Positions 19,921-22,848 of a stretch of 23,744 nucleotides of DNA are shown piece by piece. The translations under genes were made by a program, and so were the position numbers. Every line of letters starts with the position of its first letter. The first letter of the stretch is position 1. Source of the stretch: Alphaproteobacteria bacterium (lineage in GTDB: Bacteria; Pseudomonadota; Alphaproteobacteria; UBA828); the NCBI GenBank assembly GCA_022826345.1, contig JAJDVB010000182.1, positions 1 through 23,744 of the forward strand, given 5' to 3'. The notes below the pieces were generated by a model. It had not been told where the DNA came from, searched no databases, and saw only the letters and a list, made by a program, of their open reading frames with translations.

Positions 19921-20694
19921 ATGGCGAGCGACATGCAACAGAGGGTGATGGTCACCGGTGCCGGCCGCAGCATCGGCCGCGCCGTGGCCGAGCGCTTCCA
20001 CGCCGCCGGCGCCCGTGTCCATATCTGCTGCGTGACCGACGAGAGCCTCGGGGACGTGCTCGGCGCGAACCCCGGCATGTCCGGCAGCATCGCGGACGTG
20101 GGCTCGGCCGCAGCCGTCGCGCGCTGGTTCGAGGAAGGGCTCGCGACCCTCGGCGGGCTCGACGTGCTTGTGAACAACGCCGGCATCAGCGGCCCGCGCG
20201 CGCCCGTGGAGGAGATCGAGGACGACGAGTGGCAGCGGGTGATCGACGTCAACCTCAACGGCATGTTTCACTGCATCAAGCGGGCCGTGCCGGTGATGAA
20301 GGCGCAGGGCTCCGGCACGATCATCAACATTTCCAGCGCGTCCACGCGGGTGGGGATGCCGCTCAGGACTTCCTACATCACCACCAAGTGCGCGGTGGAC
20401 GGCATGACCATGAACCTCGCGCGCGAGCTCGGCCCCTCCGGCATCCGCTGCAACGCCATCCTGCCCGGCATCATCGACAACCCGCGCGGGCGGCGCCTGA
20501 TCGCGCACCTCGCGAAGGAGCGGGGGCAGACGGTCGAAGAAGCGCACGAGCGCTACGTGAGCTTCATCTCCACGCGTTCGCTGATTAGCTGCGAGGAGGT
20601 TGCCGACGCCGCGTTCTACCTGGCGCAGGACTCGGCGCGCAACATCACAGGGCAACTGATCGGGGTCTGCGGCAATCTGGAGTGGGAGGAGTAG
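19921..20694 (+). CDS. Short-chain dehydrogenase/reductase (SDR)
   Basis: The product has 257 residues, a classical SDR. The cofactor motif TGAGRSIG is at 12-19, NNAG at 85-88, the structural Asn at 111, the catalytic Ser139, Tyr152 and Lys156 (YITTK). The substrate is unknown. A GGGAG ribosome site precedes the ATG. It is transcribed divergently from the aromatic decarboxylase across 197 bases. Oxidation of an amine- or aldehyde-derived alcohol would fit but is only a guess from position. It ends against the sspB stop with no bases between. Confidence 0.92.
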   Translation: MASDMQQRVMVTGAGRSIGRAVAERFHAAGARVHICCVTDESLGDVLGANPGMSGSIADVGSAAAVARWFEEGLATLGGLDVLVNNAGISGPRAPVEEIEDDEWQRVIDVNLNGMFHCIKRAVPVMKAQGSGTIINISSASTRVGMPLRTSYITTKCAVDGMTMNLARELGPSGIRCNAILPGIIDNPRGRRLIAHLAKERGQTVEEAHERYVSFISTRSLISCEEVADAAFYLAQDSARNITGQLIGVCGNLEWEE

Positions 20695-21264
20695 CTACTT
20701 CTTGCGGAAGTGGTCGAGCGCCACGACCTTTTCGCCGTTCGCGTCCTGCGCGTCCGCATCGTCCTCCGCCTCCGGCGAGGCCTTTTCCCCACCCGCCGCC
20801 GGCACCGACCCTGTTGCGCGATCTTCCGGCTCGGCCTTTTTCCCGCGGGTCTTCCGCTTCGCTGGTTTTTCGCCCGCTTCCGGCGCGGTCATCTCTCCGC
20901 GCGCCTCCGGCGCGACCCCGAACTGCAGGCCGAACTTGACCGAGGGGTCGGCGTAGCTGGTAAGCGCCGCAAAGGGGACGACGATTCGCTGGCCTACCTT
21001 GTTGAAGCTCAGCGTCACGGAGAAGGAATCGTCCTCGACCGCCAGGTCCCAGAACTGGTGCTGAAGCACGATCGTGAGTTCGTCCGGGTAGCGCGTGTGC
21101 AGGAAATCCGGCACCTCGACGCCGGGGGCTGCGGTCTTGAAGGTGATGTAGGCGTGGTGGGTGCCGGGCCAGCCCTCCTCTGCGACCCGGCGGAGCGCCT
21201 CGCGGACCACCGAGCGCAGGCCGTTCTCGACCAATGTGTTGTAACCGATGAGGTCCTTGCTCAT
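20695..21264 (-). CDS. sspB: ClpXP adaptor SspB, alphaproteobacterial type
   Basis: The product has 189 residues. The N-terminal domain (about 1-120) matches the SspB-alpha fold: MSKDLIGYNTLVENGLRSVV, HHAYITFKT, YPDELTIVLQHQFWDL and IVVPFAALTSYADPSVKFGL. A disordered, charged linker (about 121-175) leads to the conserved tail VVALDHFRKK, the place where alpha-type SspB binds ClpX. The protein carries tmRNA-tagged peptides to ClpXP for degradation. The tmRNA gene lies directly upstream on the same strand. The stop abuts the convergent SDR stop. Confidence 0.93.
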   Translation of the reverse strand: MSKDLIGYNTLVENGLRSVVREALRRVAEEGWPGTHHAYITFKTAAPGVEVPDFLHTRYPDELTIVLQHQFWDLAVEDDSFSVTLSFNKVGQRIVVPFAALTSYADPSVKFGLQFGVAPEARGEMTAPEAGEKPAKRKTRGKKAEPEDRATGSVPAAGGEKASPEAEDDADAQDANGEKVVALDHFRKK

Positions 21265-21292
21265 TGCCGCGTCCGTGTCCGCTCGCTCAACC

Positions 21293-21317
21293 GAGGCTGC
21301 TGTTGCCCGATGCCCCC
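21293..21317 (-). repeat. Hairpin copy B in the sspB leader
   Basis: GAGGC (21293-21297) and GCCCC (21312-21316) flank a 14-base loop. The loop is almost identical to that of the tmRNA-side hairpin (copy A): minus-strand core CGGGCAACAG in both. It lies about 30 bases upstream of the sspB start. Confidence 0.6.
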
Positions 21318-21400
21318 AATCACCCGCGTTCGGAGGCGCCGGCTAGCTTAGCCCGGAAGCCTCGCCACGGTCACGGCCTCGTCGGGAATTCCAGGTTAGC

Positions 21401-21428
21401 GGGGGGCTTCTGTTGCCCGGCGCCCCCC
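21401..21428 (-). repeat. Hairpin copy A at the 3' side of tmRNA
   Basis: A 7-bp stem, GGGGGGC (21401-21407) with GCCCCCC (21422-21428), closes a 14-base loop. The loop CGGG (minus strand) can pair with CCCG about 30 bases downstream (near 21382-21385), which would make a pseudoknot as tmRNAs often have. Confidence 0.6.
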
Positions 21429-21450
21429 AAGCCGCGCTTACCTAGCGATG

Positions 21451-21483
21451 CTAAGCAGCGAGTGCGACTTCGTTGTCGTTCGC
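21451..21483 (-). other. tmRNA tag reading frame, ANDNEVALAA
   Basis: Codons GCG AAC GAC AAC GAA GTC followed by GCA CTC GCT GCT TAG encode the degradation tag. The ALAA end matches the ClpX-recognised terminus of E. coli-type tags and ANDN the adaptor-binding start. The resume codon GCG sits in a 6-bp stem (GTGCGA 21485-21480 with TCGCAC 21467-21462). Confidence 0.93.
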
Positions 21484-21685
21484 ACCTCTGAGTTGGCCCG
21501 ATAACGGCGGTACCATGCCGGGCGAAAACCACACCTTTACCACGCACGTCGATCCTGGTTCGCCCCCGCAACTTGGGCCGCCTGCCCAAAGGGTGGTGGA
21601 GGCGCCGGGTACTGCCCCCGGGTCCGCAACGCTTATTCCGAGCAGCGTTTATCGCCATAGTCGACGGTCTCCCGCCGACCCCAAC

Positions 21686-21714
21686 AATATAGGTGCTCGG
21701 GGCGCGTTTGGGAA
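21686..21714 (-). promoter_or_regulatory. Promoter for tmRNA
   Basis: On the minus strand TTCCCA (21714-21709), a 17-base spacer and TATATT (21691-21686) place a start near 21680, which gives an acceptor piece of about 87 nt. A separate TATGAT (21754-21759) on the plus strand could be the -10 of thyX; its -35 is unclear. Confidence 0.6.
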
Positions 21715-21792
21715 GTGGCCGCGGCGTTTGTGCACTTGGTTGCGGGAGCGGGGTATGATCGCAGCGCGGACCTCCGCTTCACCTCGCCGGGG

Positions 21793-22848
21793 ATGCCCCT
21801 CACCGTGCCGATTGACGACAACAAGCGGGCGGAGATCGAAGCCCAACGCGCTACCTCGCACGAGACCAGGCGCGCCACGGTGCCGGCCCTGGAGTCGATC
21901 CTCTACGAGCGCTTCGATGTGCTCGATCACGGCTTCGTCCGCGTGATCGACTACATGGGGGACGATTCCGCCATCGTGCAGGCGGCGCGGGTCTCCTACG
22001 GCGCGGGCACGCGGCATGTGCGGGAGGATCGCGCGCTGATCCGCTATCTCCTGCGCCATCGCCACACCACGCCCTTCGAGATGTGCGAGCTCAAGCTGCA
22101 CATCAAGGCGCCGATCTTCGTCGCGCGCCAATGGCTCCGCCACCGCACCGCCAGCGTCAACGAGTATTCCGCGCGCTACTCCAGGCTGGACCGCGAGTTC
22201 TACGTGCCGGACGCGGCCCATCTGCAATCGGTGCACGAGGAGCAGATCGGTCGTCAGCGGGCCACAAGCAGTGGCATGGACGACCTGTTCGGGGCCGTGG
22301 ACGCACCGGACAAACGCCTAGCGCTCGCCGCGCAGTCGGGCTCCAACAAGCAGGGCCGGGACGATGCGCTGACGGACGCGGAGGCCCGCCAGGCGCTCTC
22401 ACGCCTCGATTGGATTTCGACCCGCGCCTACGGCGTCTACAAGAACCTGCTCAACGAGGACGACTCGGGCGAGCCGAAGGATCCCGACCGCGCCGGCCTC
22501 GCCCGTGAGCTCGCCCGCGCGGCGCTGCCGGTCAACTACTACACCCAGTTCTACTGGAAGATCGACCTGCACAACCTGCTGCACTTTCTCTCGCTGCGGG
22601 CGGACGATCACGCCCAGTACGAAATCCGTGCCTATGCGGAGGTGATCCTCGACAAGATCGTCGCGCGCTGGGTGCCGGCGACCTACGAAGCCTTCCGGGA
22701 TTATGGGATGGACGCCGCGTCGCTCTCGAAAGGTGGGCTCGACGTGGTCAAGCGCATGCTGGCGGGCGAAGCGGTCGAGCAGGAGAACAGCGGTCTTTCC
22801 AAGCGCGAGTGGCGCGAGTTGATGGCGGTGCTGGGGCGGGAGCCATAG
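21793..22848 (+). CDS. thyX: FAD-dependent thymidylate synthase ThyX
   Basis: From the ATG at 21793 the product has 351 residues and makes dTMP from dUMP with FAD, NADPH and methylene-tetrahydrofolate. The ThyX signature [14 protein letters not shown] is at 116-129. Other family parts are [34 protein letters not shown] and the C-terminal [20 protein letters not shown]. The frame is open back to a GTG at 21715, but that start overlaps the opposite-strand tmRNA promoter, so the internal ATG is preferred. The length is above the common 220-300 residues because of an inserted region (about 145-200), as in other alphaproteobacterial members. No thyA is seen in the window. Confidence 0.95.

Follow-up and report, generated by a model that had tools for sequence, protein, structure and literature searches.

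A probable, partly decayed duplicate of the tmRNA 3′-terminal pseudoknot in an sspB leader, and recurrent duplication of this pseudoknot in Alphaproteobacteria

Two hairpins with the same loop length and a common loop core lie 110 bases apart in the window, the 23,744-nt stretch of DNA analysed here. One is at the 3′ side of a tmRNA gene and the other in the 5′ leader of sspB, which encodes the adaptor for ssrA-tagged proteins. Does the second hairpin imitate the tmRNA element and let tmRNA or its partners act on sspB, or is it the residue of a duplication? The tmRNA gene ssrA is of the permuted, two-piece alphaproteobacterial type (positions 21398 to 21718, minus strand; Rfam RF01849, 233.3 bits), with the tag ANDNEVALAA. 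The Rfam match, from 21718 to 21398, spans the full length of the model, and ARAGORN called a tmRNA with this tag at 21360-21688. sspB (20695 to 21264, minus strand; Pfam PF04386, 140.2 bits) lies downstream on the same strand, and the neighbouring thyX (21715 to 22848, plus strand; Pfam PF02511, 177.3 bits) is divergent from ssrA. A tmRNA was present in 53 of 60 relatives; the loci of 48 of them were oriented (five were not included), giving 49 loci with the window. In 42 of these 49 loci (the window and 41 of the 48 relatives) the strand of ssrA also carries sspB further downstream, in 41 of them within 241 nt, which makes a coupling of the two genes plausible.

The copy within the tmRNA gene (copy 1; 21401 to 21434, minus strand) is the known 3′-terminal pseudoknot, pk3, of the permuted alphaproteobacterial tmRNA, as the initial annotation had supposed in assigning one hairpin to a tmRNA pseudoknot. 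It sits at the 3′ end of the coding piece, past the tag stop codon, and is an H-type pseudoknot, in which a strand further upstream forms base pairs with the beginning of the S2 loop. S1 (4 bp) pairs CGGC (21434-21431) with GCCG (21421-21418), and S2 (7 bp) pairs GGGGGGC (21428-21422) with GCCCCCC (21407-21401) around a 14-nt loop, GCCGGGCAACAGAA, which contains CAACAGAA. Scored with a covariance model built for the tmRNA hairpin, this copy reached 66 bits. We aligned 40 of the 49 tmRNA 3′ ends, leaving out nine near-identical ones, and counted 38 distinct rows. Changes on both sides were seen at 9 of 11 pairs, 94.8% of cells were paired (96.7% in S1, 93.7% in S2), and none of 500 shuffles equalled any of the five covariation measures. 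S1 occurred as CGGU/ACCG, CGGC/GCCG, GGGU/ACCU and GGGC/GCCU across the relatives, switching CG/GU and UA/CG on both sides. In PMC1168896 the corresponding element of chain A of the Caulobacter two-piece tmRNA is called pk3; its helix 8 has four base pairs and its tail is ACCU. Copy 1 occupies the same place, a region covered by RF01849, with a 4-bp first helix and a short tail. The two-piece coding RNA is typically credited with two pseudoknots only, PK1 and PK2, in the review PMC3985003, so that the name differs from pk3 but, by position, the element does not. A terminator role for copy 1 or for the second copy was rejected, as a pattern scan of 20400-22400 returned zero terminator-like sites on the minus strand.

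The second copy (copy 2; 21295 to 21328, minus strand) lies in the sspB 5′ leader, where it had first been placed. A direct repeat of 23 nt (21295-21317 and 21405-21427, 87% identity, spacing 110) links it to copy 1. The hairpin described there (21293 to 21316, minus strand) has at most 5 bp including one G-U, GGGGC/GCCUC (21316-21312 with 21297-21293), and its 14-nt loop, AUCGGGCAACAGCA, has the core CGGGCAACAG in common with copy 1. Inspection of the repeat and of both hairpins thus bore out the spacing, the shared loop length and the shared core reported in the initial annotation, but as a hairpin the second element is weak. The covariance model gave it 11.2 bits (E=2.1 in 167,534 bases), which is not significant, and its predicted folding probability is about 0.03.

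The low score of the covariance model would be compatible with a chance similarity of two G+C-rich stretches. We weighed it against a comparison, within each of 91 loci, of pk3 with the 250 nt that follow it (218 nt in one control); G004, a relative of the window, was left out, as its contig starts within the tmRNA. The six top Smith-Waterman scores were 42 in G002, 40 in G006, 38 in the window, 36 in G026, 34 in G034 and 32 in G001. These six loci were set apart from the 85 others, which served as controls; G026 and G034 have intact second copies. The controls reached a maximum of 26 (mean 17.8, sd 2.9), and the 47 controls with at least 60% G+C likewise reached 26 (mean 19.2, sd 2.7), so that the score of the window indicates a homologous duplicate of pk3. 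Dinucleotide shuffling of the leaders against pk3 gave p values of 4e-4 for the window, 2e-4 for G002, 8e-4 for G006 and 1.6e-3 for G001, with the provisos that the p value of the window is inflated by its having been picked for the similarity, and that the relatives are not independent of the window. Four relatives exceed the maximum of all controls, including the G+C-rich ones, and preserve different parts of the parent pk3: G006 retains CGCGGCTT, lost in the others, and the others retain CAAC, lost in G006, as expected from a single parent pk3 copy. Chance does draw some support from G004, a member of the same clade that carries copy 2 by alignment and whose own dinucleotide shuffle found no significant similarity to pk3 (p 0.39). 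We consider chance unlikely; taken by itself the covariance model would favour it, but the comparison with the controls argues for homology. Judged by its sequence, copy 2 is homologous to pk3.

Copy 2 lies between the sspB start and a promoter-like block (21345 to 21376, minus strand) made up of GTGACC (21374-21369), 18 nt and TAAGCT (21350-21345). The match of this block to the sigma-70 consensus is weak, and it was not among the promoter-like sites listed by the pattern scan of 20400-22400. We examined its conservation in the genus of the window, for which the sample consisted of eight genomes (G001 to G008) and the window, all nine with the sspB upstream region. Five of them carry copy 2 (the window, G001, G002, G004 and G006). 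In these five carriers, 28 of 32 columns of the block are invariant, and the block is also present in G003 and G008 and, by eye, in G007. Its conservation makes it look like the sspB promoter. In contrast to those 28 of 32 columns, only 12 of the 28 columns of copy 2 are invariant in the five carriers; the figure for the stretch from the copy to the start codon is 20 of 27. Copy 2 itself appears in the leader alignment as a 28-column insert without counterpart in G003 and G008, although this gap could be a deletion in those two genomes rather than an insert in the carriers. The leaders of G003, G005, G007 and G008 showed no significant similarity to pk3 (shuffle p 0.30-0.90). Thus, across the nine genus members, copy 2 is not conserved as an sspB leader element. 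The parent pk3 is strictly kept in the same genus: 46 nt are identical in six of eight genomes (the window, G001, G002, G003, G006 and G008), the remaining two differ at 2 and 3 positions, and the contig of G004, which covers just the last 32 nt of pk3, has the same sequence there.

The stem and loop of copy 2 have not been held constant in its carriers. The full 5-bp stem is present in the window and G002 only, and at least one pair is damaged in the other three (G001, G004 and G006). Over the five sequences 80% of stem cells are paired, with no compensatory change on both sides, and three of the five are unpaired at columns 65-82. The loop core varies as CGGACAACGA, CGGGCAACGG and CGGGCGACGG. 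Pairwise identity among the carriers is 84% in the loop core versus 65% in the leader just upstream, which leaves room for a weak constraint. The initial annotation had offered selection on the loop or a recent duplication; duplication is upheld by the score of 38 versus the control maximum of 26, whereas the drifting core speaks against selection on the loop.

Folding predictions point to another structure. In the window, GGGGGC of the leader is predicted to pair upstream with a P of 0.96, versus about 0.03 for the copy 2 hairpin. In the resulting 5′ leader hairpin of sspB (21307 to 21342, minus strand), the 3′ strand would be supplied by the GGGGGC-AUCGG half of copy 2. The upstream pairing is also predicted in G001 (1.0 at five of the six bases) and G004 (1.0 at all six); the predicted fold of G002 is mixed, with about half of the weight downstream, and that of G006 is a shifted hairpin. 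In the five sequences 84.9% of the cells of this alternative stem are paired and three pairs have changes on both sides, but, depending on the measure, between 53 and 132 of 500 shuffles match this, so that the alternative hairpin is only suggestive. On the predicted probabilities and the damaged stems of the relatives, we rejected a pk3-like fold of the sspB leader.

These observations bear on the proposal of the initial annotation that the leader hairpin might bind a factor of pk3, so that tmRNA or its partners would feed back on sspB. The proposal has in its favour the frequent position of sspB just after ssrA, the retention of the stem and most of the loop in the window and G002, and an intact pk3 outside tmRNA in all three genomes examined of another family, f124. 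The damaged stem, the drifting loop, the competing predicted fold and the two relatives without the insert make tmRNA-mimicking feedback on sspB unlikely. Moreover, the copy was not found in four of nine genus members, a comparable copy occurred in none of the 85 control loci even though sspB follows ssrA in most loci tested, and G026 has an intact second copy and yet no sspB within 1500 nt after its tmRNA. Absence of the hairpin in close relatives and a lack of loop conservation, which the initial annotation had named as evidence against its own proposal, are thus largely what we found, and we hold such feedback to be very unlikely. A widespread sspB leader element was also rejected. In each of 42 named loci from elsewhere in the Alphaproteobacteria (among them Roseomonas, Belnapia and Ferrovibrio), which had been chosen by an exact pk3 pattern and whose pk3 is near-identical, the covariance search returned a single significant match; the next best match in them reached 14.4 bits (E 0.66).

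The best explanation, which we regard as probable, is that copy 2 arose by duplication of pk3 into the sspB leader, has partly decayed and no longer has a pk3 fold under selection. A pk3 segment of about 30 nt would have been copied about 110 nt downstream, between the promoter-like block and the ribosome-binding region of sspB, in the ancestor of a subclade of this uncultured Rhodospirillales genus. Its bases may since have been recruited by a different hairpin, where the sspB leader begins, or may simply lie within that hairpin, and copy 2 would most likely be a neutral spacer or a generic 5′ stem. We propose that short duplications of the structured 3′ end of tmRNA arise repeatedly, through slippage or recombination within the G-rich stem or possibly as scars of integration.

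Integration at tmRNA genes could leave a second copy of the tmRNA 3′ segment. An integrative element that targeted the ssrA 3′ end might in this manner have left copy 2 as a second target copy. Genomic islands often integrate into tmRNA genes (PMC11915505), and the loop-to-loop spacing of comparable copies, 71-110 nt, would fit such scars (110 in the window, 100 in G298, 93 in G026 and 71 for the third copy of G514), as would the 3′ half of pk3 in G150, which recurs there exactly. Unlike in those islands, no element lies between the copies of the window, which are too close to hold one or an integrase; and the copies of family f14, described below, are adjacent full pseudoknots, better explained by simple tandem duplication. 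We find a scar of this kind quite unlikely. The repeat in G150 (L093, 1535-1550 and 1660-1675) comprises 16 nt, GAAGCACCCACCACTT, 125 nt downstream, and is possibly an attachment-site scar or a partial duplication.

Duplication of pk3 is recurrent in the class. A scan of 387 alphaproteobacterial genomes, each with a completeness of 90% or more, looked for pairs of GCAACAGAA loops separated by 12-133 nt, and the matches retrieved were inspected by eye and scored with the pk3 model; a class-wide covariance model search scored the best 16 candidates per genome. Since both loops had to match GCAACAGAA exactly, diverged copies were missed and the counts are limited by the pattern. A second pk3 copy after the tmRNA was found in 8 of 387 genomes, from four families; families and genera go by anonymous labels here (f1, g1, f14 and similar). 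The second copies are all pseudoknot-like and intact in f14 (G034, G155, G236 and G304), f121 (G225 and G357) and f6 (G026). In the eighth genome, G298 of f126, the loop CCTCGCAACAGAA is kept and the stem of the second copy is damaged (L199, 1476-1520 and about 1575-1625), so that it resembles the case of the window. One further match, in G232, joined pk3 to a chance match inside sspB and was discarded, as were the other remaining matches, which had no pk3. Three pk3-type loops follow the tmRNA in G514 (L245) and G438 (L246). The third copy of G514, which recalls that of the window, is partial; its loop is identical, but the 5′ strand of its stem differs.

Most of the f14 genomes sampled have the doubled form: two tandem pk3 pseudoknots were found in about 86 of 119 (L184-L187, L207-L234), given that 89 matched the pattern and three of these (G451, G509 and G478), without a pseudoknot context, were judged chance. 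From its size and its number of genera, our guess is that f14 may be the Sphingomonadaceae. We looked closely at 32 f14 loci (4 + 28). All four S1 pairs of the second copy could form in 32 of 32 loci; when partners were shuffled and the offset was rechosen, the mean was 13.4 of 32 and the maximum 22 in 2000 shuffles. Counted by cells, 128 of 128 were paired, versus a mean of 107.6 and a maximum of 117 in the same control. We relied on this control, since shuffling at a fixed offset (mean 92 of 128 cells, maximum 107) flattered the result. The second copy displayed five S1 types and twenty S2 stem sequences, whereas S1 of the first copy hardly varies and therefore carries no covariation signal. 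This pairing pattern indicates that the second pseudoknot of f14 is under selection.

In f121 the pattern was present in 12 of 31 genomes (L173, L174, L235-L244), with the copies 63-66 nt apart from loop to loop and an apparent small hairpin between them; none of the six genomes of genus g126 in this family had tandem pk3. We tested nine tandem loci, six from f14, two from f121 and one from f6. In all nine, the RF01849 match ends before the last pseudoknot and the ARAGORN gene end precedes the loop of that pseudoknot, falling inside the pseudoknot in f14 and f121. This affects the ends assigned to tmRNA genes, which are used to map genomic islands. We propose that in f14 and f121 the second copy would be an extra pseudoknot of the mature tmRNA. 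Such tandem pk3 with covariation at tmRNA 3′ ends might suggest the same role for copy 2 of the window; there, however, the conserved promoter-like block stands between the copies and the pk3 fold of copy 2 is lost, and we judge this role extremely improbable for it. A decayed duplicate remains our preferred reading of copy 2: an adjacent copy may be kept as an extra pseudoknot, and a copy beyond the sspB promoter would decay.

Tandem pseudoknots have a parallel in one-chain cyanobacterial tmRNA, for which PMC1168896 describes pk4a and pk4b, two smaller units in tandem. The likeness lies in a tmRNA pseudoknot present as tandem units; the difference is that f14 and f121 double the 3′-terminal pseudoknot of a two-piece tmRNA. 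The literature searched, whose coverage did not extend to key specialist papers, held no mention of doubled 3′-terminal pseudoknots in two-piece tmRNA. Compared with the Caulobacter pk3, copy 2 differs in that the loop core is kept, the stem is not conserved and the copy is outside the tmRNA, in the sspB leader. The copy of the window is a relic, and the tandem pk3 found elsewhere is the more interesting result. Shared loop letters beside a tmRNA gene can thus be a duplication scar, and for the window a tempting regulatory story is removed. More generally, the last pseudoknot of two-piece tmRNA has been duplicated repeatedly, and the tandem loci are natural material for asking what pk3 does.

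The tandem copies of f14 and f121, the putative small RNA of f124, which would have a promoter of its own, and the copy in the sspB leader might together mark pk3 as a self-contained, transferable module that Alphaproteobacteria copy time and again, and at least some copies would still bind its partner. This broader reading is doubtful in our estimation, and for the window's own copy taken alone we think it very improbable.

The f124 locus was present in the three genomes examined (L090:1391-1547, plus strand; L103:1497-1654, minus strand; L248:1391-1548, plus strand). It is RNA-gene-like, free-standing and about 155 bp long, with the intact pk3 at its 3′ end. It contains TTGACA-N17-TAnnnT promoter-like sites, the tmRNA-like segments TTAAATGnAAAT and AATGATAAT, and a hairpin; a tRNA-like domain is absent, and the Rfam and ARAGORN scans of L090 and L103 made no tmRNA call. 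In two genomes a tyrS-type gene and an MFS gene flank the locus, in G145 with an extra ORF in between, and in G554 it is located elsewhere. Each of the three genomes also has a normal tmRNA, identified with Rfam in two and by eye in G554. A second permuted tmRNA was seen in G111, on contig C5 (L095; 72.8 bits), with the tag ANDNSPVAMAA and near three tRNA genes; the stronger tmRNA of this genome is on another contig (L104).
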